Under the pieces are notes generated by a model. The model did not search any database, was not told the DNA's origin, and was given only the letters and a program-made list of their open reading frames with translations. Made by a program: the position numbers and the translations under genes. A DNA stretch of 64,000 bases from Actinomyces oris. Its GTDB lineage: Bacteria; Actinomycetota; Actinomycetes; Actinomycetales; Actinomycetaceae. Below are positions 1,495 through 48,897 of the stretch, piece after piece (position 1 is the stretch's first letter; the number at the start of each line of letters is the position of its first letter). The stretch spans positions 436,191-500,190 of the forward strand of contig NZ_VICC01000001.1 of NCBI RefSeq assembly GCF_006546825.1, given 5' to 3'.

Positions 1495-2165
1495 TGTGCT
1501 GTCTCCTCACTTCTGAGACATGTGAGTGTCATGACTTCTGAGACTCTCGCTCGGGCGGGAACTCTGGGCGGGCTGGTGGTCCTGGAGGCGAGGATGGGGC
1601 GAGGGGAAGAAGTCTGGAGGGCCGCTGGTGTCCACAGCACTGACATTAACCCCGTACCGGCGCTGCACACCGGAGAGAAACCGCAGTATTCCAACGATCC
1701 CCGCTGAGCGCGCTGACGCCGGGCTGGCTAATGTCAGCGCTGTGGACACCAGTCCTCGCAGGAGTGAGTCCGGGGTTCTTGCGGCACGGCCCGGCTCCTC
1801 CGTCACAGGTCCGTCCCCACCGTCCCCTGCCCGCCGTCTGCGCTGGGGCCCGGTGGTCATGGTTGGACGCCGGCTCCGCAGTGAGTCTCACCTCGGGTCG
1901 ACCTGCTCCACGAGGGTCGGGATCTACTGGCCAAGGGTTGTGCGTACTGCACGAAGGCCCCACCTACCCAAAGTGCCCCCCACCCTCCTCCAGTAGCACC
2001 CCACCCTCGTGCAGTGCATCCAGACGACGCCGGCAACCACCACAGCCACCGGGGCAGCCCCTCCAGCAGGGAGAATCAGCAGCTCTCCCATCTGGCAGAC
2101 ACACACTCAACCGGTGTCTCAGATGTCATGACATCCGAAACTCTCAGAAGTCATGAGACAACACA
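1495..2165. mobile_element. 671-bp transposon-like element with 52-bp inverted ends
   Basis: The ends 1495-1546 and 2114-2165 are imperfect inverted repeats of 52 bp, about 40 of 52 positions agreeing, both beginning TGTGYTGTCTC and carrying ACTTCTGAGA and TGTCATGAC. They are flanked by a 15-bp direct repeat (1480-1494 and 2166-2180, GAGGGTTCAGGGYAC). I see no transposase inside and none of its short open frames looks coding, so it is probably a non-autonomous or decayed element. The terminal motif and long target duplication recall the IS481 family, but that assignment is inference. It sits between the MFS gene and the hydrolase gene and accounts for this 780-bp gene-free stretch. Confidence 0.72.
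1625..1752. repeat. 128-bp element bounded by 24-bp inverted repeats, nested in the larger element
   Basis: Bases 1625-1648 and 1729-1752 are inverted repeats of 24 bp with a single mismatch (arms begin CTGGTGTCCACAGC). The 80-base interior shows no gene. It lies inside the 671-bp element and could be a nested miniature element or a large stem-loop. Confidence 0.55.
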
Positions 2166-32009: not shown

Positions 32010-32837
32010 ATGATCTTGGTGACCGGTGCAAGCGGACGGTTCTCCTCAGCTCTCCTGGCGGAGCTGCGCGCTCGCGGCATTCCGGCGGTGGGTGGCAGCC
32101 GCACGCCGTCGGCGGGGCAACGGCATGTTGACTTCAGCGTCCCGGACAGCCTGGATTTCAACGGCGTCGACACCCTGCTGCTGGTGCCCGCCGGGGCGCA
32201 GGAGGACGACCGGCAGATCGCCTTCAACCGCGCCGCCGTTGAGGTCGCGGAGCGCGACGGCGTTTCCCACATCGTCTACACGAGCCTCACTGGTGCGGGC
32301 GACCACTTGTCAATGGCGCTGCCGCACCGCGTCACCGAGGGAATCATCATGGCCAGCGGCATGACATGGACCATTCTGCGCAACGGCGTCTATGCCGAGA
32401 TTCTCGGCGTTCCGCTCTCGTGGGAGAAGCACGGGGAAGCGTTGAGAATTGTGTCGCCGTTGGGAGACGGGGCTGTGGCTGCGGTGGCACGGCACGACCT
32501 GGCCTGCGCGGCGGCCTCCCTCCTCAGCGACCCGGGTAGGCACGAGAGGAAGGTCTACGAGTTAGTGGGAAGCCGTGCGGTGTCCGTCGCTGACGTCGCA
32601 GTCCGCCTGGGCTGTGAGGTGAGGGACATCAGCCTGGGCGAGTACCGGCAACTGCTCGCCGAGGGTGGGATGCCGTCCTTCCGCCAGTCCCTGATGCTCT
32701 CGATCGCCAGTGTCATCCGGCACGGGTTCTTGGCCAGGACGGGTGATGACCTTCCGTATCTGCTGGGCCGGGAGCCCACGGATCCGCTCGTTGTCGCAGC
32801 CAAGGCTCTGGCTGCTCGGCGCGCGGTCGTACCGTAG
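32010..32837 (+). CDS. NmrA-like NAD(P)-binding oxidoreductase (QOR2-like)
   Basis: 275 residues; GAAGGAGG precedes the ATG. Rossmann motif at the start: ILVTGASGRFSSALLAEL. Then VGGSRTPSA, DFSVPDSLDFNGVDTLLLVP, SHIVYTSLTGAG, and WTILRNGVYAEI as in QOR2/NmrA quinone reductases of the atypical SDR class. It probably reduces quinones or senses NADPH. It is divergent from an HxlR regulator, which likely represses it. An R palindrome begins 2 bases after the stop. Confidence 0.88.
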   Translation: MILVTGASGRFSSALLAELRARGIPAVGGSRTPSAGQRHVDFSVPDSLDFNGVDTLLLVPAGAQEDDRQIAFNRAAVEVAERDGVSHIVYTSLTGAGDHLSMALPHRVTEGIIMASGMTWTILRNGVYAEILGVPLSWEKHGEALRIVSPLGDGAVAAVARHDLACAAASLLSDPGRHERKVYELVGSRAVSVADVAVRLGCEVRDISLGEYRQLLAEGGMPSFRQSLMLSIASVIRHGFLARTGDDLPYLLGREPTDPLVVAAKALAARRAVVP

Positions 32838-32839
32838 GT

Positions 32840-32893
32840 CGCGCTGTCGAGGGTTAAAGGTACGACCTCGCGGATTACCCTACGATCACGCGG
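32840..32893 (+). repeat. R element, copy 3 (intact)
   Basis: 54-bp imperfect palindrome: outer arms CGCGC/ACGCG, middle TCG/CGA and inner AGGGT/ACCCT, with a roughly 20-base loop containing ACGACCTCGCG. It starts 2 bases after the NmrA-like gene stop, so it may serve as terminator. Confidence 0.75.
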
Positions 32894-34303: not shown

Positions 34304-36192
34304 GCGCGCCGGGCGAGGAGACGCCAGGGGCCGACGCCGCCGCGCGAGCCGACGGACCGGGTGCCGGCGGCCCCCGGCCCGGCTGGGGCGAGCGGGCCGG
34401 CTGGACCCTGGCCGTCGTCGGCCCGCTGGCCTTCCTGGCGGTCTTCTTCGCCTGGCCCGTGGCCACGCTCATGGGCCGCGGCCTCGCCCCCGACGGCGCC
34501 CTGGACCTCAGCGGCTTCGGCGAGGTCCTGGCCCGCGAGCGCACCTGGCGGATCCTCACCCAGACCCTCACCCAGGCGGTACTCGGCACTGCCGTGTGCG
34601 TGGCCCTCGGCATCCCCGGAGCCCTCGTCCTCTACCGGCGCGCCTTCCCCGGCCGCGACCTGCTGCGCGGGGTGGTGACCGTGCCCTTCGTGCTGCCCAG
34701 CGTCGTCGTCGGCGTCGCCTTCCACGCCCTGGTCACCCGCGGCGGGCCCCTGGAGGCCCTGGACCTGGATGGGACGCTGACCGCGGTGGTGGCCGCGCTG
34801 GCCTTCTTCAACTACGGGCTCGTGGTGCGCGCCGTGGGCACCATGTGGTCGCGGCTCGACCCGCGCGCCGTGGAGGCCGCCCGGGCGCTGGGGGCCTCGC
34901 CGATGCGGGCCTTCGCCACTGTCACTCTGCCTGCGCTGGCCCCCGCCATCGCCTCAGCCGCCTCCCTGACCTTCCTGTTCTGCGCCACCGCCTACGGGGT
35001 GGTGCTCGTGCTCGGCGGGGTGGGGATCGGCACCATCGAGACCGAGATCTACCGGCTGACCACCCAGTACCTCGATCTGCGGGGCGCCGCCGTCCTGTCG
35101 GTCGTCCAGCTCGGCGTCATCGCCCTGGCCCTGTGGGTGGCCGAGCGGGCGCGCGCCGCCACCCAGACGCGCCTGCGCCTGCGCACCGAGGTGCCCGCCG
35201 GGCGGCTGCGGGCTGCCGATGCCCCCGCGCTCGCGGTCACCGCCGCCACGGTCGGGGGGCTGCTGGTGGCGCCGATGGCGGTGCTGGTGGCGCGTTCCCT
35301 GCAGCGCGACGGCGCCTGGACGCTGGCGAACTACACCGACCTGGGATCGACCGGCGGGCGCAGCGCCCTGCTCGTGACCGTGTGGGAGGCGGCCGCCAAC
35401 TCGGTGGCCGTGGCCGTAGCGGCCGCGGCCATCGCCCTGAGCCTGGGGGTGGCGGTGTGCCTGGTCGTCTCGCGCCGACCCCGCAGCCGGACGCTGGCCC
35501 GGGTCATCACCGGGCTCGACGCCGCCTTCATGCTGCCGCTGGGCGTCTCCGCCGTGACGGTCGGCTTCGGCTTCCTCATCACCCTGGCGCGCCCGCCGCT
35601 GGCCCTGACCCGCTCCTGGTGGATCCTGCCGCTGGCGCAGGCCGTCGTGGCCGTGCCGCTCGTGGTGCGCACCCTGCTGCCGGCACTGTGCGCCATCGAC
35701 CCGCGTCAGCGCGAGGCGGCCGCTGCCCTGGGGGCCGGACCCGGCCGGGTGCTGGCGACCGTGGACGGGCCCCAGCTGCTGCGCGCCGGCGGACTGGCGG
35801 CCGGCTTCGCCCTGGCGACGTCGCTGGGGGAGTTCGGGGCGACGTCGTTCCTGGCCCGGCCCCAGGAGCCGACCCTGCCGGTGGTCGTCTACCGGCTCAT
35901 CGGCAGCCCCGGCTCCCAGAACCAGGGGATGGCGCTGGCCGGGGGCGTCGTCCTGGCGGTGGGCAGCGCCGCCGTCATGCTCGGCTGCGAGTGGCTCCAG
36001 ACCCGGCTCGGCCCCGGGCGGGGCGAAAGCGCGGGCGCGACGTCGAGGCCGGGTGGGGCGTCGGCGCCTCAGCCGGCTCCGCAGCGCGCGGTACCCGTGG
36101 ACGCCGGCCAGCATGCGGCGGGCACGACGGGCGGAAACAACAAGACGGCCCGGGTACGCGGGCCCAGGACGGACGGAGGCGAGCGGCCATGA
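34300..36192 (+). CDS. thiP: Thiamine ABC transporter, fused double permease
   Basis: 630 residues from GTG 34300, which overlaps the thiB stop (GTGA). About 12 membrane helices in two halves, each with the binding-protein-dependent EAA loop: VEAARALGASPMRAFATVTL in the first half and REAAAALGAGPGRVLATV in the second. A fused two-permease chain is the ThiP/FbpB design and explains why a single permease gene suffices. The C-terminus has a 60-residue Gly/Ala-rich tail. The next gene overlaps its stop as ATGA. Confidence 0.92.
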   Translation: MSAPGEETPGADAAARADGPGAGGPRPGWGERAGWTLAVVGPLAFLAVFFAWPVATLMGRGLAPDGALDLSGFGEVLARERTWRILTQTLTQAVLGTAVCVALGIPGALVLYRRAFPGRDLLRGVVTVPFVLPSVVVGVAFHALVTRGGPLEALDLDGTLTAVVAALAFFNYGLVVRAVGTMWSRLDPRAVEAARALGASPMRAFATVTLPALAPAIASAASLTFLFCATAYGVVLVLGGVGIGTIETEIYRLTTQYLDLRGAAVLSVVQLGVIALALWVAERARAATQTRLRLRTEVPAGRLRAADAPALAVTAATVGGLLVAPMAVLVARSLQRDGAWTLANYTDLGSTGGRSALLVTVWEAAANSVAVAVAAAAIALSLGVAVCLVVSRRPRSRTLARVITGLDAAFMLPLGVSAVTVGFGFLITLARPPLALTRSWWILPLAQAVVAVPLVVRTLLPALCAIDPRQREAAAALGAGPGRVLATVDGPQLLRAGGLAAGFALATSLGEFGATSFLARPQEPTLPVVVYRLIGSPGSQNQGMALAGGVVLAVGSAAVMLGCEWLQTRLGPGRGESAGATSRPGGASAPQPAPQRAVPVDAGQHAAGTTGGNNKTARVRGPRTDGGERP

Positions 36193-37337
36193 GCCCGACT
36201 GCCAGTAACACCAGTGCTTCGACGGGACTGTCCGTGCGCGGGCTCGCCGTGACCTACGGGGACCTGCGCGCCGTCGACGGCGTCGACCTGGAGGTGACCG
36301 CCGGGGAGGTCGTCGCCCTCCTGGGGGCCTCGGGATCGGGCAAGTCCTCCCTGCTGCGGGCGGTGGCCGGCCTGGAGGATGTGGCCGCCGGCGAGGTCGC
36401 CTGGGACGGGCGGAGCATGGTGCGCGTGCCGGTCCACAAGCGCGGCTTCGGCCTCATGTTCCAGGATGGTCAGCTCTTCGAGCACCGCGACGTCGGCAGC
36501 AACATCGCCTACGGGCTCACCGGCCTGCCGCGCGCCCAGCGGGGCGAGCGCGTGCGCGAGATGCTCGAGCTCGTCGGCCTGCCCGGATTCGAGCGGAGGC
36601 GCGTGACGACCCTGTCCGGCGGGCAGGCCCAGCGGGTGGCTCTGGCCCGGGCGCTTGCCCCGGCGCCGAGGCTGCTGCTGCTCGACGAGCCCCTGTCCGC
36701 CCTGGACCGGGCCCTGCGCGAGCAGCTGGCCACCGACGTGCGCACCATCCTGCGTCAGGGCGGTACGACGGCGCTCTACGTCACCCACGATCAGGACGAG
36801 GCCATGACCGTGGCCGACCGGGTCGGCGTTATGGAGGCCGGCCGCCTCCTGCGCCTGGACACCCCCCAGCGCCTGTGGGCCGACCCCGGAAGCAGCAAGG
36901 TGGCGCGGTTCCTGGGATTCGACGTCGTCGGCGACCTCGCCCTCGCCCCCGGCGCGCTGCGCGTGGTGGAGGCCGCGGCGGGGGAGCCGGGGGAGCCGGA
37001 CGGGCCCGCGCAGACGGAGATACCGGCGGCACCGGAGACCCTGCCGGCCACCGTACTGGCCTCGCGGCTGCGTCGCGGCCAGTGGGAGGCCGAGGTCGAG
37101 CTCGACCCCGAGCGGCTCGCCGCCCTGGCGGAGCCGGAGGGGCCGGACGGGTTGGCAGGGCCAGACGAGGTGGCCGGGCTGGACAGGCAGGCTGAGCCGT
37201 CCGGCGTCGAGGCTGATGCGGCGGCGGATCGTGAGCCGGTCCGTGCTGCCCGTGCTACCGCCCTGACCCGGCGCCCCCACGCTCCCGGTGCGCGCGTCAC
37301 CCTGTACCTCGACCCCGCCCGCACCGCCCGGCTCTAG
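36189..37337 (+). CDS. thiQ: Thiamine ABC transporter, ATP-binding protein
   Basis: 382 residues. ABC domain at about 15-240: Walker A GASGSGKSS, Q-loop FGLMFQDGQLFEH, signature LSGGQAQR, Walker B LLLLDEPLSALD, H-loop YVTHDQDEA. The remaining 140 residues are acidic and Pro/Glu/Ala-rich with a small regulatory-like end (VTLYLDPAR), longer than in Escherichia coli ThiQ. Completes the riboswitch-controlled thiBPQ operon that imports thiamine or TPP at the cost of ATP. Confidence 0.92.
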   Translation: MSPTASNTSASTGLSVRGLAVTYGDLRAVDGVDLEVTAGEVVALLGASGSGKSSLLRAVAGLEDVAAGEVAWDGRSMVRVPVHKRGFGLMFQDGQLFEHRDVGSNIAYGLTGLPRAQRGERVREMLELVGLPGFERRRVTTLSGGQAQRVALARALAPAPRLLLLDEPLSALDRALREQLATDVRTILRQGGTTALYVTHDQDEAMTVADRVGVMEAGRLLRLDTPQRLWADPGSSKVARFLGFDVVGDLALAPGALRVVEAAAGEPGEPDGPAQTEIPAAPETLPATVLASRLRRGQWEAEVELDPERLAALAEPEGPDGLAGPDEVAGLDRQAEPSGVEADAAADREPVRAARATALTRRPHAPGARVTLYLDPARTARL

Positions 37338-37549: not shown

Positions 37550-38587
37550 GTGCACTCGTCCGCCCAGGACACCCCTGCCTCCACCAGCCCCCTCGAGGCC
37601 GCTGACCCCGCCGATGCCGCCGTCGAAGCCGCCGACGCCGCCACTGCCGCAGACGCCGCGGCGCCCACCGCCGACCGCGCCTTTCACGAGCGCCCCGGCG
37701 GCTCCCGCCAGGTATGGCGCCGCCTGGCCGCTGACCGCTGGGCCCTGGCCGGAGGCGCCGTCGTCATCGCGACCACCCTTGTGGCCCTCCTCGCCCCCTG
37801 GATCACCCGGGCCCTCGGCGTGGACCCCTACACCTACCACCTCGACCTGCTCACGCCCTCCGGCATCCCCGCCGGTCGCCTCGGGGGCATCAGCGCCGCC
37901 CACCCCTTCGGCGTCGAGCCCCAGACGGGGCGGGACCTGTTCGCCGTCGTCGTGGAGGGAACCCGCACCTCCTTCTCCATCGGCATGGGAGCCACCGTCC
38001 TGTCGATGCTCATCGCCATCAGCCTGGGGCTGAGCGCCGGCTACCTGGGCGGCTGGTGGGACGCCATCGTCTCGCGCCTGACCGACATCACCCTCGGCTT
38101 CCCCCACCTGGTCTTCATGATCGCCATCTCCGCGATCATCCCCGCCACCGCCCCGCGCGTACCGGTCATGATCCTCATCATCGGGATCCTCGGCTGGCCC
38201 TCGACCGCACGCGTCCTGCGCTCGCGGACCATGGCCGTGCGCGCCCGAACCTTCGTGGGAGCCTCGCGGGCCATGGGCGCCGGCGGCCTGCACATCATGA
38301 CCACCCAGGTCCTGCCCAACCTCGTGGCCACCATCATCGTGCTCACCACCATCTCCATCCCCGGCAAGATCACCGCCGAGGCCGCCCTGTCCTTCCTTGG
38401 GGTGGGCGTGCCCCCGCCGACACCGTCCTGGGGCCGCTCCATCGGCTCGGCCATCACCTGGGTCGCCACCGACCCCTGGTACCTCGTCTTCCCCGGCGCC
38501 GCCCTGTTCCTGGTGACCTTGGCCTTCAACCTCTTCGGCGACGGCCTGCGCGACGCCCTCGACCCCAGGACCGGTGAGCACCGATGA
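37550..38587 (+). CDS. Dipeptide/oligopeptide ABC transporter permease (DppC/OppC-like)
   Basis: 345 residues from GTG 37550. A 60-residue Ala/Asp-rich N-terminus precedes about six helices. The EAA loop is VGASRAMGAGGLHIMTTQVL; AEAALSFLGVGVPPPTPSWG is the hallmark of the DppC branch. ATG of the next gene overlaps its stop. Unusually, the C-type permease precedes the B-type. The Cys-rich leader upstream suggests induction under cysteine shortage, so peptides as a sulfur source are plausible substrates (inference). Confidence 0.9.
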   Translation: MHSSAQDTPASTSPLEAADPADAAVEAADAATAADAAAPTADRAFHERPGGSRQVWRRLAADRWALAGGAVVIATTLVALLAPWITRALGVDPYTYHLDLLTPSGIPAGRLGGISAAHPFGVEPQTGRDLFAVVVEGTRTSFSIGMGATVLSMLIAISLGLSAGYLGGWWDAIVSRLTDITLGFPHLVFMIAISAIIPATAPRVPVMILIIGILGWPSTARVLRSRTMAVRARTFVGASRAMGAGGLHIMTTQVLPNLVATIIVLTTISIPGKITAEAALSFLGVGVPPPTPSWGRSIGSAITWVATDPWYLVFPGAALFLVTLAFNLFGDGLRDALDPRTGEHR

Positions 38588-39570
38588 ACCGCCTGCACTT
38601 CCTCGGCCTCAGGCTCGTCCGCACCCTGGCGACCCTCGTCATCATCGTCTTCATCACCTTCGCCATCTTCTCCCTGTGGCCCTCCGACCCGGCCACCCTG
38701 GCCTGCGGCCGGCCCTGCACCCCGGAGAACCTCGAGCGCGCCCGCGCCTTCATGGGGTACGACCTGCCCTGGTACACCCAGTTCTGGCACTACCTCCAGG
38801 GCATCATCGGGGGGCGCACCTTCGGTGAGGGCTCCGGCGCCATCGCCTGCGCCTCCCCCTGCCTGGGCTACTCCTTCCGCCTGTCGACGCCGGTCAGCGA
38901 GCTTGTGGCCACCCGACTGCCGGTGACCGCCTCGATCGCCGTGGGCGCCGCCGTCCTGTGGCTGGCCATCGGCGTGGGCGCCGGCGTCGTCTCCGCCCTC
39001 AGACGCGGCTCACGCCTGGACCGCACCATCATGACCGGAACGGTCCTGGGCATCTCCTCACCCGCCTACCTCGTAGGGCTGCTGGGCATCCTCCTGTTCG
39101 GCTTCACCCTCGACATGGTGCCGGTCTCCGGCTACGTCCCCTTCGCCGACAGCCCCGTGGACTGGGCCTGGCACCTCATCCTGCCCTGGTGCGTCCTCGC
39201 CCTCATCTCCGCGGCCGTCTACGCCCGCATGGTGCGTGGCGAGATGCTGGAGAACCTCGGCGAGGACTACGTGCGCACCGCGCGCGCCGTCGGCCTGCCC
39301 GAGCGCCGCGTCGTCGGCCGCCACGTGATGCGCAACATCTCCCTGCCGGTGGTCACCTACTTCGCCCTCGACCTGGGTGGCCTGCTGGGCGGCGCGGTCA
39401 TCACCGAACGCGTCTTCTCCATGCAGGGCCTGGGCGCCCTCCTCATGGACGCCGTCGGCACCTCCGACGTCCCCGTCGTCATGGGGGTCACCCTGGTCGC
39501 CGCCGCCTTCGTCGTCGTCGCCAACCTTGTGGCCGACGCCGTCGCCACCCTCATCGACCCCCGTCTCTGA
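38584..39570 (+). CDS. Dipeptide/oligopeptide ABC transporter permease (DppB/OppB-like)
   Basis: 328 residues. N-terminal helix LVRTLATLVIIVFITFAIFS, a large external loop (about residues 35-105) with four cysteines (ACGRPC, CASPC) that could form disulfides, then five helices. The EAA loop is RTARAVGLPERRVVGRHVMR. The end ITERVFSMQGLGALL is typical of DppB. Overlaps the upstream gene by 4 bases. The Cys-containing external loop is less usual for DppB and may relate to ligand or redox conditions. Confidence 0.9.
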   Translation: MNRLHFLGLRLVRTLATLVIIVFITFAIFSLWPSDPATLACGRPCTPENLERARAFMGYDLPWYTQFWHYLQGIIGGRTFGEGSGAIACASPCLGYSFRLSTPVSELVATRLPVTASIAVGAAVLWLAIGVGAGVVSALRRGSRLDRTIMTGTVLGISSPAYLVGLLGILLFGFTLDMVPVSGYVPFADSPVDWAWHLILPWCVLALISAAVYARMVRGEMLENLGEDYVRTARAVGLPERRVVGRHVMRNISLPVVTYFALDLGGLLGGAVITERVFSMQGLGALLMDAVGTSDVPVVMGVTLVAAAFVVVANLVADAVATLIDPRL

Positions 39571-39673
39571 GCAGCCTCACGAAGGCCCATCCCACTTCTC
39601 CTCCGGCGCCGACGGCGTCGGGACCCCGACCGGCGACCCACCACGGGCCGACCGCAGCACAGGAAGGACACCC

Positions 39674-41350
39674 ATGTCTCACCACCACCGCACCCTCATC
39701 GCCTCCCGCCGCGCCTTCCTGGCCGGAACCGGCATGACCGCCCTAACTGCGCTGACCCTGGCCGCCTGCGGGGCCAACTCACGCTCATCCTCGGGCGCCT
39801 CGGCCAGCGCCAAGGCCGGCGGCAACCTCACCATCCTGACCTCGGCCACCGACGTCGGCTGGGATCCCGCCAAGAGCCAGTCGATGCCCATGACCTCCCT
39901 CGGCCTGGTCCACCGGCGTCTGACCACCTGGAAGCTGGAGCCCGGCAAGCCCGTCGAGCTCGCCCCCGACTTGGCCACCGACACCGGCAAGGCCTCCGAC
40001 GACGGCCGGACCTGGACCTTCACCCTCAAGAAGGGCCTCAAGCTCTCCGACGGCACGGCCATCACCTCGGCCCACATCAAGCACGGCGTCGAGCGCTCCT
40101 TCGCGCCGGCCCTCTCCGGGGGCCTGGGCTACCACAAGTCCCTCCTGGCCGGCGCCGAGGGCTACCAGGGCCCGTACTCCGGCGCCCACCTGAGCTCGAT
40201 CGAGACCCCCGACGAGTCCACCATCGTCTTCCACCTGGCGCGCGCCTTCGGCGACTGGCCCTGGATCGTCGCCCAGCCGGCCTTCTCACCGGTGCCCGAG
40301 GGCGACGACCCCGCCACCTACTCCCACGCACCCATCGCCTCGGGGCCCTACCAGATCGACCAGTACAAGCAGGGCTCCTCCATCACCCTCAAGCGCAACC
40401 CGCACTGGTCCAAGGACACCGACAGCATCCGTCTGGCCCTGCCCGACACCTTCACCTTCTCGCTCGGCCAGGACGAGACCACCTCCGCTCAGCGGCTCAT
40501 CGCCGACTCCGGCGAGGACCGCAACGCCTTCGGTGCCGACCGCGTCTCGGCCGCCCAGCTCGCCCAGGTCTCAGCCAACGAGAGCGCCAAGTCCCGCTTG
40601 GCCACCAGCCCCGAGGGCGGGCCGCTGGCCTTCCTGGCCATCAACGTCCAGCGCGTCAGCGATGTCAACGTGCGCAAGGCCATCGCCCACGCGGTCGACA
40701 AGGCCGCCGTCGTCGCCGCCCTGGGTGGGGAGCTCGGCGCCCAGGCCGCCTCCACCTACATCACCCCGGGGATTCCCGGCCGCCAGAGCTACGACCTCTA
40801 CCCTCACGACGCCGCCAAGGCCAAGGGGCTCCTGACCGGCAAGACCGTGCCGGCCCTGGTCCTGCTCACCGACAACGGCGCCGCCTCCAAGGCGATGGCC
40901 GAGGCCGTGGGCCAGTCCCTCAAGGAGGTGGGCCTGACGGTCACCATCGAGCCGGTTGAGCCCGACACCTTCACCGAGCGCGCCACCAAGGGTGATGGCT
41001 CCACCTACGACCTGGCGATCGCCAACTGGAACCCGGACTACCCCTCCGCCAACGCCAACATCCAGCCCCTGTTCGCCTCCTCCGAGATCGGCTCGGGCGG
41101 CTCCAACTACGCCCGCTACTCCAACGCGGAGGTCGACGCCGCCATCGCCCAGGCCCAGGCCAACCTCGACGCCAAGGCCGCGCAGGCCCAGTGGGCGGCC
41201 CTGGACCGCAAGATCGCCGAGGAGGTGCCCGTGGTGCCCCTGGCCTACCGGCGCAACTCCTTCCTGCACGGCTCGGGAGTGGCCGGGTTCTTCGTCGAGT
41301 CCTACCCCGCCTACCCCAGCTACCAGGTGATCGGAGTGAGCGCCTCATGA
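39674..41350 (+). CDS. Peptide ABC transporter substrate-binding lipoprotein (SBP_bac_5)
   Basis: 558 residues from ATG 39674, preceded by AGGAAGGA. Signal with Arg pair (SRRAFLAGTGM) and lipobox LAAC (Cys about 35). SBP_bac_5 features: DVGWDPAKSQSMP at the start, LAPDLATDTGKASDDGRTWT and FTLKKGLKLSDGTAITSAHI, then NVRKAIAHAVDKAAVVAALGG and YDLAIANWNPDYPSANANI. It binds peptides (or nickel/glutathione-like ligands in some homologues) outside the cell and delivers them to the DppBC-like permeases. ATGA overlap with the ATPase gene. Confidence 0.92.
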   Translation: MSHHHRTLIASRRAFLAGTGMTALTALTLAACGANSRSSSGASASAKAGGNLTILTSATDVGWDPAKSQSMPMTSLGLVHRRLTTWKLEPGKPVELAPDLATDTGKASDDGRTWTFTLKKGLKLSDGTAITSAHIKHGVERSFAPALSGGLGYHKSLLAGAEGYQGPYSGAHLSSIETPDESTIVFHLARAFGDWPWIVAQPAFSPVPEGDDPATYSHAPIASGPYQIDQYKQGSSITLKRNPHWSKDTDSIRLALPDTFTFSLGQDETTSAQRLIADSGEDRNAFGADRVSAAQLAQVSANESAKSRLATSPEGGPLAFLAINVQRVSDVNVRKAIAHAVDKAAVVAALGGELGAQAASTYITPGIPGRQSYDLYPHDAAKAKGLLTGKTVPALVLLTDNGAASKAMAEAVGQSLKEVGLTVTIEPVEPDTFTERATKGDGSTYDLAIANWNPDYPSANANIQPLFASSEIGSGGSNYARYSNAEVDAAIAQAQANLDAKAAQAQWAALDRKIAEEVPVVPLAYRRNSFLHGSGVAGFFVESYPAYPSYQVIGVSAS

Positions 41351-43317
41351 GCCGGCAGACCCAGGGCGCCCGCGCGCAGTCCACTGACGTACCGGTCGCC
41401 GACGACGCGGCGCTGAGCCTGCGCGGCTTCGGCGTCACCTTCGCCGGCTCCGATACTCCCGCCTCCACCGGCATCGACCTGGACCTTCGGCCCGGACGCG
41501 TCCAGGCCCTCGTGGGAGAGTCCGGCTCCGGGAAGTCGGTGACCGCCCTGGGCGCCCTGGGTCTGCTCCCTCCCACCGCCACCGTCACCGGCTCGGCGCG
41601 CGTCATCGACCCCGACGCGGCCCGCCAGGCCGGCCGGGACGGCGGAGAGTCCGGAACCGCGGACGCCGTCGAGCTCGTGGGGGCCTCGCGCCCGGTGCTC
41701 GACGACGTGCGTGGACGCCTCGTCGGCACGATCTTCCAGGAGCCGACCACGGCCCTGGACCCGCTGGAGACCATCGCCTTCCAGATCGGGGAGGCCGTGC
41801 GCGCCCACCCCGACGCCTTCCGGCGGGCCCACGCGAGCGCCGGATCGGATGCCGGCTCCCAGGCCGGTGGCGGGGGCCGACGGCGACCCGGCCGACCCGG
41901 CCTACCCGGCCGGTCGGGCCGGTCAGGCCGGCTCAGCCGCGCCGAGGTCGACGCCAGGGTGCGTGAGCTGCTCGCCCGAGTGGGGCTGGGCGGCCGCAGT
42001 ACGGGCGGGAAGGACAGCGCGGACGATGCCGACGGTGCTGACCGTGCCGATGGTGAAGTGCTCGAGCGCATCGCCCGCTCCTACCCCCACCAGCTCTCCG
42101 GCGGCCAGCTGCAGCGCGCCTGCATCGCCCTGGCCATGGCCTGCGACCCACCGGTCCTCATCGCCGACGAGCCCACCACCGCGCTCGACGTCACCGTCCA
42201 GGCGGGGATCCTCGACCTGTTGCGCTCCCTGACCCGGGACGAGGGCGTGGCGGTCCTCCTCATCACCCACGACATGGCCGTCGTCGCTGATGTGGCCGAC
42301 GACGTCGCCGTCATGCGCCACGGACGCATCGTCGAGCGCGCAGCCGTGCGCGAGATCTTCCAGAGGCCCAGGCACGAGTACACCCGCGAGCTGCTCGCCG
42401 CCGTGCCCCGCCTGGACTCCCTGCGCCAGGAGGACCCCTTCGCCGCGGTCGCCCGCGAGTCCGAGGCACCGGCCAAGGGAGCGGCCGAGCCCGTCGTCGC
42501 CGTTGAGGGACTGAACGTCGTGTACCGCAACGGTCGCCGCACGGTCCACGCCGTGCACGACGCCTCTCTGACGATCGCGCCGGGCGAGGTCCTGGGCCTG
42601 GTGGGCGAGTCCGGATCGGGCAAGTCGACCATCGCCGGGACCCTCACGGGGCTGGTGCCCATCGCCTCGGGCAGTGTGCGTGTCGACGGCGTCGAGGTGG
42701 CCGGGGCCCGGCGCCGCGACCTGCTGCCCGTGCGCCGCTCGACGGGCGTCGTCTACCAGAATCCGGCCTCCTCCCTCAATCCGCGGCGCACCGTGGGGGC
42801 CTCGATCGCCGAGCCCATGCTCATCCACGGCGGCTTCGACTCCCCGGCCAGGCGGGCGCGCGTGCGCGAGCTGCTGGAGGCGGTGCGCCTGCCGGCCGCC
42901 ATGGCCGAGCGCTACCCCCACGAGATGAGCGGTGGCCAGCGCCAGCGGGTGGCGATCGCCCGCGCCCTGGCCCTGGACCCGCGCCTGGTCATCGCCGACG
43001 AGCCCACCAGCGCCCTGGACGTCTCCGTGCAGGCCGTGGTCCTGGACCTGCTGCGAGCCCTGCAGGCTGAGCTGGGGTTCGCCTGCCTGTTCGTCTCCCA
43101 CGACCTGGCCGTCGTCGATTCCATTGCCGCGCGCACGGTGGTGCTCAGCGCAGGCCGCGTCGTGGAGTCCGGACCCACGGAGCAGGTGCTCGCCCGCCCA
43201 CGCGAGGACTACACCCGGCGCCTGGTCATGGCGGTGCCCGTGCCCGATCCGGCCGTGCAGGCCGCCCGCCGCGAGCGCCGTCGAGCCCTCAAGGCCGTGG
43301 AGGGCGTGCACGCGTAG
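41347..43317 (+). CDS. Fused double ABC ATPase of the peptide transporter (DppD-DppF-like)
   Basis: 656 residues with two complete ABC domains. First: Walker A GESGSGKSV (about 57), an Arg/Gly/Pro-rich insert (about 160-200), signature LSGGQLQR, Walker B LIADEPTTALD. Second: Walker A GESGSGKST (about 419), signature MSGGQRQR, Walker B VIADEPTSALD; each is followed by the oligopeptide-type C-terminal segment (RPRHEYTREL, RPREDYTRRL). The fusion replaces the usual two genes. The last 10 codons (ALKAVEGVHA) are part of a DNA repeat shared with the end of the helicase gene at 47284. Confidence 0.93.
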   Translation: MSRQTQGARAQSTDVPVADDAALSLRGFGVTFAGSDTPASTGIDLDLRPGRVQALVGESGSGKSVTALGALGLLPPTATVTGSARVIDPDAARQAGRDGGESGTADAVELVGASRPVLDDVRGRLVGTIFQEPTTALDPLETIAFQIGEAVRAHPDAFRRAHASAGSDAGSQAGGGGRRRPGRPGLPGRSGRSGRLSRAEVDARVRELLARVGLGGRSTGGKDSADDADGADRADGEVLERIARSYPHQLSGGQLQRACIALAMACDPPVLIADEPTTALDVTVQAGILDLLRSLTRDEGVAVLLITHDMAVVADVADDVAVMRHGRIVERAAVREIFQRPRHEYTRELLAAVPRLDSLRQEDPFAAVARESEAPAKGAAEPVVAVEGLNVVYRNGRRTVHAVHDASLTIAPGEVLGLVGESGSGKSTIAGTLTGLVPIASGSVRVDGVEVAGARRRDLLPVRRSTGVVYQNPASSLNPRRTVGASIAEPMLIHGGFDSPARRARVRELLEAVRLPAAMAERYPHEMSGGQRQRVAIARALALDPRLVIADEPTSALDVSVQAVVLDLLRALQAELGFACLFVSHDLAVVDSIAARTVVLSAGRVVESGPTEQVLARPREDYTRRLVMAVPVPDPAVQAARRERRRALKAVEGVHA

Positions 43318-43432
43318 CCGCCGCCGGCCCCACTGCCGGCCCCGCTGCCGGCCCCGCCGTCGCGTTCGTGCCTTATGCCGCGAGATCGAGGGTTAAGGGC
43401 ACGACCTCGCGACCTACCCTACGATCGCGCGG
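43285..43432 (+). repeat. Long direct repeat, copy A (contains R copy 4 at 43379-43432)
   Basis: 148 bp covering the last 10 sense codons and stop of the peptide-transporter ATPase, a GCCGGCCCC tandem stretch, and a complete R palindrome. It matches 47284-47408 in the same orientation with a few substitutions and one 23-24-bp length difference caused by extra tandem units here. It is one border of the helicase-nuclease unit. Confidence 0.85.
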
Positions 43433-43644
43433 GGACAGCGGCTCCTGGGACGAGTGGTGTCCGATCGTGTCGCAGTGCCGTTGTAATCTGCGCTCGTCGG
43501 CCGGAGCAATCCGCATCCCCTGCCCGCATCGGCCGTCCACCGGCGGTCATCGGCGTCCCCATCGACAGGCCTGCGGTGCGCGGGGCGCTCGGGTCGGCCC
43601 AACTGATTCGGGTGAGCGGGTCGACGCACATCCCTACACCACCC

Positions 43645-46600
43645 ATGAACCGCATGAACTCCATGACCTCTGACAATCTGCCCGTTTCCAAGGCGCCCAC
43701 ACCGGTCCAAAACTGGCAGAAGAGTCTGCTCGACCTCTCGCTGCGCAACCCTCTCATCAATCGCACCTCGCGCCATGCCGTGGAGCTGCGCGTCCCGCTG
43801 GCGCTCATCGGCGAGTTCGAGGATCTTGTTAATGACAAGGAATACATCACCCTCGCCGCGGGGCGATACCGGCCTGCGGAGCCGTCCGGTGAGGACCTTC
43901 GCCAGGAGGAGATCCGCGCGGACTCGCTCCTGAAGGAACGAACCGTCGAGGTCGAGCTGACCGCCACCGAGCGCGTGCAACGCCTCCAGGCCCTGGCGAC
44001 CAGCGCCCGCACCGCCGTTGAGGAGACGGGCGCCAACAACCTCTACCTGGCCATCGGCACCCTCCATTGGGACAGCGACAGCAGCCGCCTGCACTCCCCG
44101 CTTATCCTCATCCCGGTCAACCTCGAGCGCACCGGGGACGACTTCAGGCTCATCCTGGACGAGACGGGCGTCTCCACGCCCAACTACTCCTTCCTCGACC
44201 GCTTCGCGCGGGATACCGGCATCGAGCTCACCGAGCTGAGGAGCCCGAAGCTCGACGAGCACGGCATCGACCTGCGGGCCACTCTCGACGGCGTGTGCGA
44301 TCGCCTGCGGCGCGCCGGCTGGGACGACGTCGTCACCCCCACGGTCCACCTGGGACTGTTCCGCTTCTCCACCTACCGCATGTGGAAGGACCTCGAGGAC
44401 CACTGGCCGACGATCGCCGCCAACCCACTCGTCGCCCACCTCATGTCGGGAGGGCGCCAGGACTTCGTGGACCCGGTCGGCCCGGCCGATAGGGACCTCG
44501 ACATCAACGAGGCGACCCAGAACCTGCCCCTGGCCGCGGACTCCACGCAGGCCCGGATCGTGGCCGACGCCGTCGCCGGGCGTAGCCTCGTCGTCGAGGG
44601 ACCGCCCGGAACGGGCAAGTCCCAGACCGTCTCCAACCTCATCTTCCGGGCTCTGGCTACGGGGCGGACCATCATGTTCGTCGCCGAAAAGAAGTCCGCT
44701 CTCGACGTCGTCGCCCGCCGCCTGCGCGAGGAGGCCGGCATCGGGGCCCTGCTGCTCAACCTGCACGACAACGGCATGAAACCGACCGAGGTCCGCCGAG
44801 CCCTGCGCCGCGCCCTGGCCCTGCGGCGAGGAGAGTGCGGAGACGGTGCCGGTTCCGACGTCGATGCCGGCGATGTGGCCGGCCACTCCGACCCGGCTGT
44901 GCTGCGCGCCGAGCTGGCCAGGATCCGCGCTGAGTTCGACACCTACCGCGAAGGCCTGTACAAGCCGGCGCCGGATGGCCCGTCCTATAGCGGAGTCCGA
45001 GAGGTACTTGCCCAGCTCGGGAACTCTGAGGATTCTGCCGATTCTGTGGCTGCCCAGGCCGCCCTGAAGGAGCGGGCCCGAGCCACCGGCCTGGACACCT
45101 TCGACGCCGACGCCCACAACCGGCTCATCGAGCGCTACCGCAGCACCCTCGAAGAGCTGCGGGCAGCACTGACACCCGAGTTGCTCGACGTCGTCCTGAC
45201 CCACCGCGACCAGGTCCTGCAGGACGCCCCCGCCCGCGCCGAGGCGCTGCGCAGCGAGCTCAACCGCCGTCGCAGCGCCATGAGCGTGCGCGAGCTGATC
45301 CGCACCTACGGCGACCTCATCACCGCCCTGACGCCCTGCCTGCTCGTCTCGCCCGACTCGGTGGCGCGATTCTTCCCGGCAGACCGCCGCTACGTGGACA
45401 TCGTCGTCTTCGACGAGGCCTCCCAGATTCGGGTGGCTGATGCCGTGGGCGCCATGGGGCGCGGCCGTAGCGCGGTCGTGGTCGGCGACCCCAAGCAGAT
45501 GCCGCCCGCTCCCGGAGCCGGCGACATCAGAGGGGAGCAGGCGCCTGAGGCCAGCTCCATCCTCACCCGCTGCCTGGACGGCGGCCTGACCCAGCACCGG
45601 CTCACCTGGCACTACCGCAGCCGGGACGAGTCCCTTGTCGCCTTCTCCAACCGCCACTACTACGACGGCCGGCTGCTCACCTTCCCGAGCCCGCTGACGA
45701 TTGTCCCCGGATCCGACGCCGCCCCCGGCGGCCACGGCATCTCGCTGCGGCGGGTCCGCGGCCGCTATTTCCGTCCCGAGGATCGCGCCCGTCACCCCCA
45801 CGTCCAGCCGAACACCAACCCCCTTGAGGCCAAACGCGTGGTGGAGGAGGTGCTCCGGCACGTCGAGGCCTGCCCCGACCGCCTGCCCTCGCTGGGCGTC
45901 ATCACCTTCAACGATCGCCAGCGCGACCTCATCGAGAACAGCCTGCGCGAGGTCGCCTCGCCCCGGGTCATCGAGGCGCTCGACGCTCGTGACGGCCTGT
46001 TCGTCAGGAACCTGGAGAACGTCCAGGGCGAGGAGCGCGACACGATTCTGTTCTCAGCGACCTTTGCCGCTAACGCGCAGGGCGACCTGCCACTGAACTT
46101 CGGGGTTCTCAACCATGCCGGCGGCGAGCGCCGCCTCAACGTGGCTATCACCCGGGCCCGCAGGCAGATCATCGTCTTCACCAGCTTCGACGCCCAGGAC
46201 CTGCACGCTGAGCGCACGGCCCACCGAGGAGTCAAGGACCTGCGCGCCTACCTCCACCAGGCCGCCGAGGGGCGGGCCCCACGGGCCCTGCCAGCCTCGC
46301 AGAGCCCGCTCAACTGGCACCGCCGCGAGATCGCCGAGGCGCTGGAGGCGGCCGGGCTCACGGTCCACACCGGCGTCGGCCACTCCACCTTCGAGATCGA
46401 CCTCGTCCTGGCGCGCGCCGACCAGCCGGACCGCCCCGCCGTGGCCGTCTTACTCGACGGGCCGCAGTGGAACAAGCGGGAGGGTGTCGTCGAACGCGAC
46501 CTGCTCCCGGTCGATGTCCTGCGCACCATGGGCTGGCAGCGGGTCGAGCGGGTCTGGATGCCCGAGTGGCTGGCGGACCGGCAGGCCGTCGTCGCCCGGC

Positions 46601-47316
46601 TTATCGAGGCGGCCGGCGGTCACTGGGTGCCGTCGACGCCGTTGACCGCGGTGTTCGAATCGGAGCGGACCGGGCAGACCGAGGACGCCGCGCCGCTGAC
46701 CGACGACGGTGTGCAGGCCGATGCCCGGGACGGCGCCGATGTGGGCGGCGAAGCGATGGCGCCTGCCTCCGGCCCGCGGACCTCGGGTGAGGAGTACACC
46801 GCTTGGAGCCCGGCAGGTGTGCGCCCCCTGGAGATCCTCGACCGGGCCGGTACCGACGCGGAGGCCAGGAAGGTGCTCATCGAGGTCGCTACCACCATCT
46901 GCCAGGTCGAGGCCCCGATCGCCAGGCGCCGGCTCTACGTCAAGATCTCCCGCGCCTTTGGGCTCTCGCGAACCGTCAAGTCCCGCGAGGAGTCGATCAG
47001 GGCGGCTCTGGGGGAGGCCTTCGCCTACTTCGACGAGGACGGCTTCGTGTGGGCCAGCCGGGATGACGCGCTCGCGGCCCCGTCCTATCGACGCAACGCC
47101 CTGGACCACGTGGACTCCATCGAGGAGATCCATCCCCGCGAGCTGATGGGGCTCATGGCCCAGGCATGTGCGAAGAACCCGGAGTGGGCTTCCCAGGAAG
47201 ACCTGTTCAGGTGGGCGCTCAAGCGTCTGAGTGCGAAAAACCGCAGTCTTGGAGCGCGTGGGGTGGCGGAGGCTCTCACCAAGGCCCTCAAGGCCGTGGA
47301 GGGCGTGCGCGCGTAG
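43645..47316 (+). CDS. DUF4011 - SF1 helicase - MTES/Vsr-like nuclease - DUF3320 protein (Hhe-type defence candidate)
   Basis: 1223 residues from ATG 43645 (43654 and 43663 are alternatives; no clear RBS). Order: DUF4011-like N-terminus (WQKSLLDLSLRNPLINRTSR); Walker A VVEGPPGTGKSQTVSNLI (about 319); Walker B VVFDEASQI (about 586) with VVVGDPKQMPP and LTWHYRSRDESLVAF; motifs V/VI VQGEERDTILFS and NVAITRARRQ (about 831); an REase_MTES_1575/Vsr-like nuclease (about 888-1000: TGVGHSTFEIDLVLA, VLLDGPQWNKREG); a DUF3320 C-terminus (about 1052-1170). Proteins of this architecture are reported as single-gene anti-phage systems (I recall the name Hhe). Only about 260 residues separate Walker A from Walker B, compact for the family, so an in-frame deletion is possible. 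Its last 10 codons lie in the long repeat. Confidence 0.85.
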   Translation: MNRMNSMTSDNLPVSKAPTPVQNWQKSLLDLSLRNPLINRTSRHAVELRVPLALIGEFEDLVNDKEYITLAAGRYRPAEPSGEDLRQEEIRADSLLKERTVEVELTATERVQRLQALATSARTAVEETGANNLYLAIGTLHWDSDSSRLHSPLILIPVNLERTGDDFRLILDETGVSTPNYSFLDRFARDTGIELTELRSPKLDEHGIDLRATLDGVCDRLRRAGWDDVVTPTVHLGLFRFSTYRMWKDLEDHWPTIAANPLVAHLMSGGRQDFVDPVGPADRDLDINEATQNLPLAADSTQARIVADAVAGRSLVVEGPPGTGKSQTVSNLIFRALATGRTIMFVAEKKSALDVVARRLREEAGIGALLLNLHDNGMKPTEVRRALRRALALRRGECGDGAGSDVDAGDVAGHSDPAVLRAELARIRAEFDTYREGLYKPAPDGPSYSGVREVLAQLGNSEDSADSVAAQAALKERARATGLDTFDADAHNRLIERYRSTLEELRAALTPELLDVVLTHRDQVLQDAPARAEALRSELNRRRSAMSVRELIRTYGDLITALTPCLLVSPDSVARFFPADRRYVDIVVFDEASQIRVADAVGAMGRGRSAVVVGDPKQMPPAPGAGDIRGEQAPEASSILTRCLDGGLTQHRLTWHYRSRDESLVAFSNRHYYDGRLLTFPSPLTIVPGSDAAPGGHGISLRRVRGRYFRPEDRARHPHVQPNTNPLEAKRVVEEVLRHVEACPDRLPSLGVITFNDRQRDLIENSLREVASPRVIEALDARDGLFVRNLENVQGEERDTILFSATFAANAQGDLPLNFGVLNHAGGERRLNVAITRARRQIIVFTSFDAQDLHAERTAHRGVKDLRAYLHQAAEGRAPRALPASQSPLNWHRREIAEALEAAGLTVHTGVGHSTFEIDLVLARADQPDRPAVAVLLDGPQWNKREGVVERDLLPVDVLRTMGWQRVERVWMPEWLADRQAVVARLIEAAGGHWVPSTPLTAVFESERTGQTEDAAPLTDDGVQADARDGADVGGEAMAPASGPRTSGEEYTAWSPAGVRPLEILDRAGTDAEARKVLIEVATTICQVEAPIARRRLYVKISRAFGLSRTVKSREESIRAALGEAFAYFDEDGFVWASRDDALAAPSYRRNALDHVDSIEEIHPRELMGLMAQACAKNPEWASQEDLFRWALKRLSAKNRSLGARGVAEALTKALKAVEGVRA

Positions 47317-47408
47317 CCGCCGCCGGCCCCCGCCGTCGCGTTCGTACCTTGTGCCTCGGGATCGAGGGTTAAGGGCACGATCTCGCGACCTACCCTACGA
47401 TCGCGCGG
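47284..47408 (+). repeat. Long direct repeat, copy B (contains R copy 5 at 47355-47408)
   Basis: 125 bp repeating 43285-43432: ALKAVEGV[R/H]A codons and TAG in the same frame, the GCCGGCCCC stretch (shorter here), CGTCGCGTTCGT and a full R palindrome. Border-to-border unit length is 3976 bp (43433-47408), holding only the helicase-nuclease gene and its upstream region. Confidence 0.85.
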
Positions 47409-47841: not shown

Positions 47842-48897
47842 ATGTCCGCCTACGTCCGCTACTACCGGCGGCTTCAGGCACTCACTCAGCGCCTGAGCAC
47901 CTATCTGGACCGGTTGGAGGCTCGCGCCCGGGAGTTCGGCGTCAGCTCGGCCCGCACCGCGATGGAGATGCAGATCACTGACCCGGCCTCCGTCTCAGCC
48001 TTCCGCTCGGAGGTCGAGGCCCAGATCATGTTCCTGCACACCAAGGCCCAGCGGGTCTTCGCCAAGCACTTCGCCCCCTTCCTGGACATCGACGCCGACC
48101 TGTCCATCGACGAGGACCGTCAGCTCTCCGCCCGCCTCCAGGACGCGGCCAACCTCGTGGGCAGCTTCGAGGTGCGCCTGCGCAACATCATCGAGGAGGT
48201 CTTCGCCCCCGGCCGTGCCGAGCAGGCCCGCGAGGAGTGGAACCGCGCCATGACCGACTGGCGCCAGGCCCAGTTCTCCTTCACCTGCGACAAGTGCGGC
48301 GACCCGGTGCCGCTGCCCGAGCTCTACCACATGCCGGTGTTCATCACCTGCCCGCGCTGCAAGTCGCGCGTGGCCTTCCAGCCCACCGAGGCCATGGCGG
48401 CCGCGCCCACCTGGGCCAAGGAGGTCGCCAAGACCACCTGCTACGCCGAGTGGCAGAAGTCCGAGTCGGAGCAGGCCGCCGAGGAGGGGGTGGGCCTGGC
48501 CTTCTTCTACTACGTCGACTACGCCATCGCCCACCACCTCATGATGAACCGGCTGCTGCCCTTCTACGTGCGCTCCCAGGGCGGCCAGGAGGCCCTGCGC
48601 CGCGACGTGCGCAAGGCGCTGGAGACCCGCACCCACCAGCTGCGCCCCGACGAGGTCTCCCCCCAGTACCACGCCATGGAGTACGTCAACTTCATGGGCG
48701 GCCTGGGCCGCTCGGCCCAGATCCTGGGCCAGGAGGGCCTCGAGGACCGCCGCGAGCTCATCCTGCAGACGGTGCGCGACATCATGCGCCCCGACGACCC
48801 GCTGGCCCGCTCCATCCTGGACAACACCTTCACCGAGGAGCTGTGGAGCCAGCAGGCCCATGCCGCCGACCAGCTCTCCTGCGAGGTGCCCCGCTAG
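47842..48897 (+). CDS. Zinc-ribbon protein of unknown function
   Basis: 351 residues; AAGGAG precedes ATG 47842. N-terminal 140 residues are helical and charged (RYYRRLQALTQRLSTYLDRL), probably coiled coil. Central zinc ribbon at about 149-180: CDKCGDPVPLPE then CPRCKSRV, two CxxC pairs. The C-terminal half is helical with aromatic-rich FFYYVDYAIAHHLMMNR and ends without a membrane segment. I recognise no family. It is the first gene of a same-strand cluster with a disordered protein, two YbjN-like proteins and a TPR protein, suggesting a cytoplasmic complex. Confidence 0.75.
   Translation: MSAYVRYYRRLQALTQRLSTYLDRLEARAREFGVSSARTAMEMQITDPASVSAFRSEVEAQIMFLHTKAQRVFAKHFAPFLDIDADLSIDEDRQLSARLQDAANLVGSFEVRLRNIIEEVFAPGRAEQAREEWNRAMTDWRQAQFSFTCDKCGDPVPLPELYHMPVFITCPRCKSRVAFQPTEAMAAAPTWAKEVAKTTCYAEWQKSESEQAAEEGVGLAFFYYVDYAIAHHLMMNRLLPFYVRSQGGQEALRRDVRKALETRTHQLRPDEVSPQYHAMEYVNFMGGLGRSAQILGQEGLEDRRELILQTVRDIMRPDDPLARSILDNTFTEELWSQQAHAADQLSCEVPR

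Follow-up and report, generated by a model that had tools for sequence, protein, structure and literature searches.

The stretch analysed here, referred to as the window, comprises 64,000 nucleotides of Actinomyces oris (contig NZ_VICC01000001.1, positions 436,191 to 500,190 of the forward strand). Its subject is a direct repeat in which the 3' ends of two different genes, a peptide-transporter ATPase and a helicase-nuclease, are followed by copies of a dispersed palindrome, here named R. The locus contains the following features, in window coordinates:

36189..37337, + strand: geneX, left neighbour, ABC-type ATP-binding protein (open reading frame (ORF) reading; PF00005)
37550..43317, + strand: peptide-transporter operon with two permease-like ORFs (by reading, no profile run), an SBP_bac_5 binding protein and a double ATPase
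43285..43317, + strand: 3'-terminal ten codons and stop codon of the ATPase, helicase-type sequence according to base counts of the tails
43358..43432, + strand: R2, palindromic repeat core
43648..47316, + strand: DUF4011 / superfamily 1 (SF1) helicase / MTES_1575 nuclease / DUF3320 protein, candidate anti-phage gene
47284..47316, + strand: 3'-terminal ten codons and stop codon of the helicase, donor end
47334..47408, + strand: R3, palindromic repeat core
47842..48897, + strand: geneY, right neighbour, conserved protein without Pfam or NCBIfam match

By reading of the ORFs, geneX is the last gene of an uptake cluster. The repeat copies lie in the same orientation at 43285-43432 (148 bp) and 47284-47408 (125 bp), with start-to-start distances of 3999 and 3976. 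They align over 47 bp at 98% identity and, after a 23-bp length difference due to additional GCCGGCCCC-type units of the first copy, over another 81 bp at 94%. The starting 24-mer of the repeat (up to 3 mismatches) was found at 2 sites in the window and at none in 100 shuffles. The first copy begins ten codons ahead of the double-ATPase stop (43317) and the second likewise ahead of the stop of the 1222-residue helicase-nuclease (47316); both genes end in ALKAVEGV-H/R-A-TAG, in frame. In a whole-genome search the coding-end part of the repeat had strong matches at these two places only, the remaining, weak matches spanning 26-42 bp with E values no better than 1.6e-4. The original prediction had reported same-orientation repeats over two gene ends, a common in-frame ending and a single helicase gene between the borders. 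Alignment and the 24-mer search confirm the first of these, the second is confirmed as well, and the third is borne out by the domain matches and by the ORF list, in which reading reveals one credible long gene between the copies.

The locus was compared across relatives from the genus Actinomyces (A. oris, A. johnsonii and A. naeslundii). The source genome is designated G000; the relatives include A. oris WE8B-23 (G001), S64C (G021) and P6N (G040), A. johnsonii CCUG 34287 (G014), A. naeslundii NCTC 10301 (G018), Actinomyces oral taxon 170 (G030) and Actinomyces sp. ZJ308 (G035). All nine oris-group helicases end in ALK, followed by A/D/E, V/A, E, four codons and TAG; more distant helicases have broadly similar ends around the ALK point, with variable length. 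The helicases of G020 and G021 keep the ALK-type end although the operon is absent at this site. Among ATPase tails read in 15 genomes, ALKAVEGVHA occurs in G000 and G001 only, and the 13 others differ. The shared end is therefore native to the helicase. Base counts agree: the G001 ATPase tail matches helicase tails at 29/33 (G021) and 27/33 (G020) positions and four native ATPase tails at 16-20/33, and the G000 ATPase tail scores 30/33, 28/33 and 16-21/33, respectively. These counts establish the direction of copying as helicase to ATPase, and about ten codons plus the spacer appear to have been transferred in an ancestor of G000 and G001. In G045 the operon and the helicase stand side by side and the gene ends are not shared. 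The fourth tail codon encodes Ala in the window helicase, Asp or Glu in the other eight oris-group helicases, and Ala in the ATPases of G000, G001 and G045; judging from this distribution, the GCC (Ala) codon of the G000 helicase probably came back from the ATPase.

The region from geneX to geneY was read in 12 oris-group genomes, of which 4 have the operon at the site and 9 the helicase. Both are present in G000, G001, G045 and G035 (on two contigs in G035), and the helicase without the operon in G020, G021, G030 and G039. G014 combines the helicase with an alpha/beta hydrolase gene whose reading frame is apparently broken, G018 has the hydrolase only, G040 a hydrolase remnant, and G022 neither operon, helicase nor hydrolase. 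The finding of a hydrolase in G014 and G018 agrees in spirit with the expectation of the original prediction that other strains would carry a different gene here. The window and each of the 11 relatives with the left border read have the geneX end at the same point. In the 8 operon-less genomes geneX is followed by a full R (7 genomes) or by the last 15 bases of R (G018), so R stands at every operon-loss junction read. G022 has a single R at a clean junction, with a left flank like that of R2 in G020 and G021 and a right flank like that of R3. One repeat copy at a clean junction was indeed anticipated for strains lacking the helicase, but G022 lacks the operon too. In G045 and G035 an additional R separates geneX from the operon.

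The R-free outgroups G003 and G004 show the order geneX, operon, geneY (protein 51-52% identical), with about 1.9 kb between the ATPase and geneY that holds one shared ORF unlike the helicase; relatives of the helicase lie at other sites in these genomes. Since G003 and G004 carry the operon and not the helicase here, the helicase is probably a later addition at a place where the operon is old. To this extent the prediction of a helicase added behind an operon is likely to hold; its claim of an integration footprint duplicating the upstream gene end is not supported, the shared codons being helicase-native. The expectation that helicase-less strains with the operon should keep a repeat copy also failed: G003, G004, G032 and G005 carry the operon without a helicase at the site, and neither the shared codons nor, within the locus fetched, an R is present. 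The site is modular, and R-to-R recombination with loss of the intervening segment would explain the observed set with few events.

The alpha/beta hydrolase module lies between R and geneY, on the strand opposite geneY (L084 10168-11427; L077 6709-7967; L083 about 9740-10100). The module is intact in A. naeslundii, seems to have a broken frame in A. johnsonii and is reduced to a remnant in A. oris P6N; its best NCBIfam match is proline iminopeptidase-like, below the cut-off. In G035 the ATPase tail continues into different sequence (L079, up to about 3064, contig C14), which may be a foreign insertion, and the helicase is on another contig.

R constitutes the last 75-76 bp of the repeat and is an imperfect palindrome with four TCG/CGA half-sites symmetric about its centre. 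It is dispersed in the genome: a search with 43240-43440 gave 21 matches, and a model built from 34 copies (150 candidates scored per genome) returned 45 rows in G000, corresponding to 31 distinct places; the near-palindromic form of R led to many copies being scored twice, once per strand. Matches were found in 15 of the 20 genus members searched, strong in the 12 oris-group genomes; those in G005, G032 and G017 were weak, with best E values of 2.4e-7 to 1.7e-6, and G003, G004, G010, G025 and G047 had none. Different sequence borders R at different places, and unrelated genes precede many copies. Gene ends around R were located by a basic gene caller that relies on codon usage and was trained on ten genes of the window. 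The 29 G000 copies placed in this way lie between co-directional (17), convergent (10) or divergent (1) genes, with 1 undecided; the corresponding numbers for 25 copies in G020 are 15, 8, 1 and 1. Twenty of the G000 copies are located 7-70 bp behind a stop codon, 4 overlap the stop, and 5 are farther away or have none, so that 24/29 lie within 70 bp of a gene 3' end or overlap it. One further copy in the window is:

32819..32893, + strand: R copy overlapping the 3' end (final codons and stop) of an NAD(P)-binding ORF (32010-32837)

The placement behind gene 3' ends fits a candidate terminator role. A known RNA element was rejected: Rfam at gathering thresholds gave no family matching the window, and folding of R as RNA was weak (z = -1.33 and -0.87; consensus fold of 7 pairs). 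No publication on an Actinomyces palindrome was found in these literature searches, and the R family seems to be previously undescribed. At window positions 1504-1543 and 2117-2210, and at G000:C1:435851-435970, right halves of R are fused to facing TCTCAGAANTCATGA motifs, which may represent the end, or a remnant, of an insertion sequence located within a copy of R.

R also varies between genomes. The G001 copies (L152-L181) stand apart from those of the five genomes compared with them in having a TTCGGGGGTT core, and the variable bases of their four NTCG/CGAN half-sites are T,T,A,A in 26/30 copies. G045 has G,T,C,A in 16/30 copies, and G000, G020, G021 and G014 have mixed bases (T,T,A,A in 6/20 in G014). 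Across the six genomes, mean within-genome identity of R exceeded between-genome identity beyond all 2000 label shuffles. The excess was driven mainly by G001, G045 and G021; the copies of G000 and G020 (0.700 and 0.729) resembled each other on average no more than they resembled copies from other genomes. This comparison left out, for weak score or odd length, 8 of 164 copies (L119, L121, L123, L124, L149, L209 and two of the 22 G014 loci). Flanks of the same loci showed no parallel base shift. The G001 dialect resembles an alteration made in situ throughout the genome, at loci with otherwise conserved flanks; either repeated conversion involving all the copies or a binding protein whose preference has changed would produce this pattern. 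Sequence avoidance was rejected as a cause, as CGTTCG/CGNTCG occurs in the flanks at 40/321 in G001 versus 25/287 in G000, 38/259 in G020 and 16/219 in G021. We consider it rather unlikely that an unknown trans-acting factor, or an active homogenising process, targets R; if it were, regular R-to-R exchange would reshape repeats, gene ends and neighbouring cassettes together.

Within genomes, the likeness of R2 and R3 is supported. Under concerted evolution, neighbouring paralogues should be more alike than other copies, and in two genomes such neighbours form the top pair: R2 and R3 of G000 are 93% identical (first of 300 pairs among 25 well-placed copies), and R2 and R4 of G020, which flank the helicase plus spacer, are identical at 76/76 positions (first of 276 pairs). 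G020 R3 differs from both (79-81%). The degenerate R2 of G045 has an exact 28-mer in common with R3; among the 30 R loci fetched from this genome only R3 itself also has it. When G000 and G001 are compared, seven sites in the right part of R agree between paralogues within each genome and differ between genomes; sites agreeing between orthologues lie on both sides of these seven, and one further paralogue site is in the right flank. Likeness of R pairs less than 6 kb apart was above that with permuted labels in four genomes (72, 8, 94 and 41 of 5000).

Several observations weigh against local exchange as the source of this likeness or against its precise delimitation. The R2-R3 pairs of G001 (95%) and G021 (88%) each reach only about the 95th percentile of their genome, and other loci show no clear effect. 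Most of the G045 28-mer is R consensus, its rare part being the end. Part of the R2/R3 likeness in G001, and therefore part of the seven-site pattern, reflects the genome-wide dialect. Forty-seven orthologous R pairs elsewhere (both flanks alignable, >80% and >200 bp) have a mean identity of 84% (lowest 68%), with flanks at 93% (88-97%). R thus diverges fast everywhere, the low R2-R2 identity between genomes is not special, and orthologue comparison alone would overstate the case. Once helicase-locus pairs were removed, the near-pair effect became weak (1097, 548, 582 and 301 of 5000), so that a general rule for near copies cannot be shown. The pair comparison left out 6 of 112 copies with weak score or odd length (L119, L121, L123 and L124 in G000, L149 in G020, L209 in G021), and the opposite-strand duplicates L150, L151 and L262-L264 were unused; because the dropped near pairs L119/L121 and L124/L102 have low likeness (0.72 and 0.70), dropping them favours exchange. 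The sample contains one genome per species. Finally, the left end of the exchanged tract rests on 6 bp, and its exact placement is impossible.

With these points taken into account, gene conversion between R2 and R3 that copied the helicase end onto the ATPase end is, in our judgement, a likely origin of the shared gene end. We infer the recombination mechanism and its timing as follows. R is a REP-like (repetitive extragenic palindromic) dispersed sequence situated behind gene 3' ends, and R2 and R3, 4 kb apart around the helicase, would exchange sequence without crossing over, by gene conversion or an equivalent template switch. In one such event, in the ancestor shared by G000 and G001, the template would have been R3 together with the 3' end of the helicase. 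The tract would have entered through R homology and run upstream beyond R, over 46 bp in G001 and 73 bp in G000, where the spacer would have expanded after the event, and would have ended at or near the 6-bp GCCCTC common to both gene ends. The last ATPase codons, stop codon and spacer would thereby have been replaced by the helicase versions. The right flank of R2 equals the flank upstream of the helicase in G020 and G030, which have the helicase without the operon; on this side, therefore, the exchange stopped within R. Later events would have increased the resemblance of R2 to R3 and, in G000, probably returned the Ala codon to the helicase. Recombination between R copies with loss of the intervening DNA would explain the coming and going of operon and helicase.

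Homology-facilitated illegitimate recombination uses homology on one side and microhomology on the other and has been described for incoming DNA. It underlies the alternative that the operon is a newcomer in G000 and G001, regained by transformation from a relative, with its right end joined through R and GCCCTC and the ATPase tail arising as a one-time join. The operon is missing at the site in G020, G021, G022 and G040, and the mosaic helicase body (described below) makes exchange between species probable here. However, the sequence to the right of R2 is of the helicase-upstream type (G020, G030), so the join calls for an additional exchange within R; the resemblance of R2 to R3 in other genomes finds no explanation; and the outgroups G003 and G004 have the operon at the same place. 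We regard this course of events as unlikely. The arrangement does resemble homology-facilitated illegitimate recombination in having R homology on one side and microhomology on the other, but donor and recipient here lie 4 kb apart on one chromosome.

Integration of the helicase behind the operon with duplication of the ATPase 3' end would account for the two repeat copies flanking the helicase and for G003 and G004, which have the operon without the helicase here. It is nevertheless very improbable, because the shared codons are helicase-native and present in the operon-less G020 and G021, G045 has both genes without shared ends, R is dispersed behind many unrelated genes, and the operon is not fixed, being missing at the site in 8/12 oris-group genomes. 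Reading of the ORF list, without a profile scan of all ORFs, showed no transposase or second credible gene between the copies. A further reading, in which the shared codons arose by convergence or, as in a refuting condition of the original prediction, belong to a terminus conserved in both protein families, is hardly credible: oris-group helicases do share the end as a family, but 13 of 15 ATPases end otherwise, and the DNA identity continues through stop codon and spacer into R.

Returning to R-mediated gene conversion, the palindrome is REP-like in place and form. R resembles REP elements, bacterial interspersed mosaic elements (BIMEs) and REPINs (REP doublets forming hairpins) in being short, palindromic, multi-copy, mostly extragenic and near gene 3' ends. 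REPINs are described, in passages of two papers (PMC3116915, PMC8049555), as doublets moved by REP-associated tyrosine transposases (RAYTs). A RAYT-driven REPIN was rejected, as the Y1 transposase profile PF01797 matched none of the 16 genomes searched, while 5/14 control genomes were positive. R further differs from REP and REPIN sequences in its length of 75-76 bp with four TCG/CGA half-sites, in exchange that ran into coding DNA, and in numbering tens of copies rather than hundreds. Gene conversion is said to have been proposed for REP element evolution by Higgins et al. in 1988, a paper cited in PMC12306157 and PMC3733652. The undescribed family, the traceable exchange into coding DNA and the dialect seem to be new. 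The locus suggests that short dispersed palindromes can transfer the end of one gene to another gene and also mark the sites at which whole operons are lost. Consequently, relatives need to be checked before a gene end duplicated next to a defence gene is taken for an integration scar. The strain-specific dialect, for its part, offers a countable system for the homogenisation of dispersed bacterial repeats without a RAYT transposase.

The helicase itself has the Pfam domains DUF4011, AAA_11/AAA_12 and the MTES_1575 Vsr-like nuclease, with DUF3320 just below the cut-off. Its best PADLOC profile was PDC-S37 (755 bits, E 3.8e-227, no cut-off given), matched in two stretches, the better covering profile positions 833-1520 of 1550. 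Scores for the NCBIfam models ProA (NF058533; 1030 bits, cut-off 1500) and Hhe (NF042953; 485 bits, cut-off 2000) fell below their thresholds. All three models match across the helicase and nuclease parts, but they span 1550 to 1911 positions compared with 1222 amino acids in the window protein. Giant MTES_1575-type proteins with helicase, Vsr-type nuclease and winged-helix parts likely act on invading DNA, as stated in a passage of a paper on the HEPN superfamily (PMC3710099), and part of PMC10250203 describes a DUF4011 gene used in Pseudomonas as the conserved flank of a defence hotspot. The present literature searches found no publication on PDC-S37 or ProA. From its domains, a defence role of the helicase is plausible. 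Phage or plasmid origin was rejected, since 398 plasmid records were all below 60% identity and one phage record reached 29%; the repeat had no match in phages, and plasmids were not searched for it. The helicase body (43500-47290) is a mosaic, with 96-99% identity to G030 in chunks where G001 shows 82-89%, and one chunk at 99% to G030 versus 85% to G001. The genes flanking the helicase are closest to A. oris-type genomes, and the mosaic body suggests interspecies exchange of the helicase.

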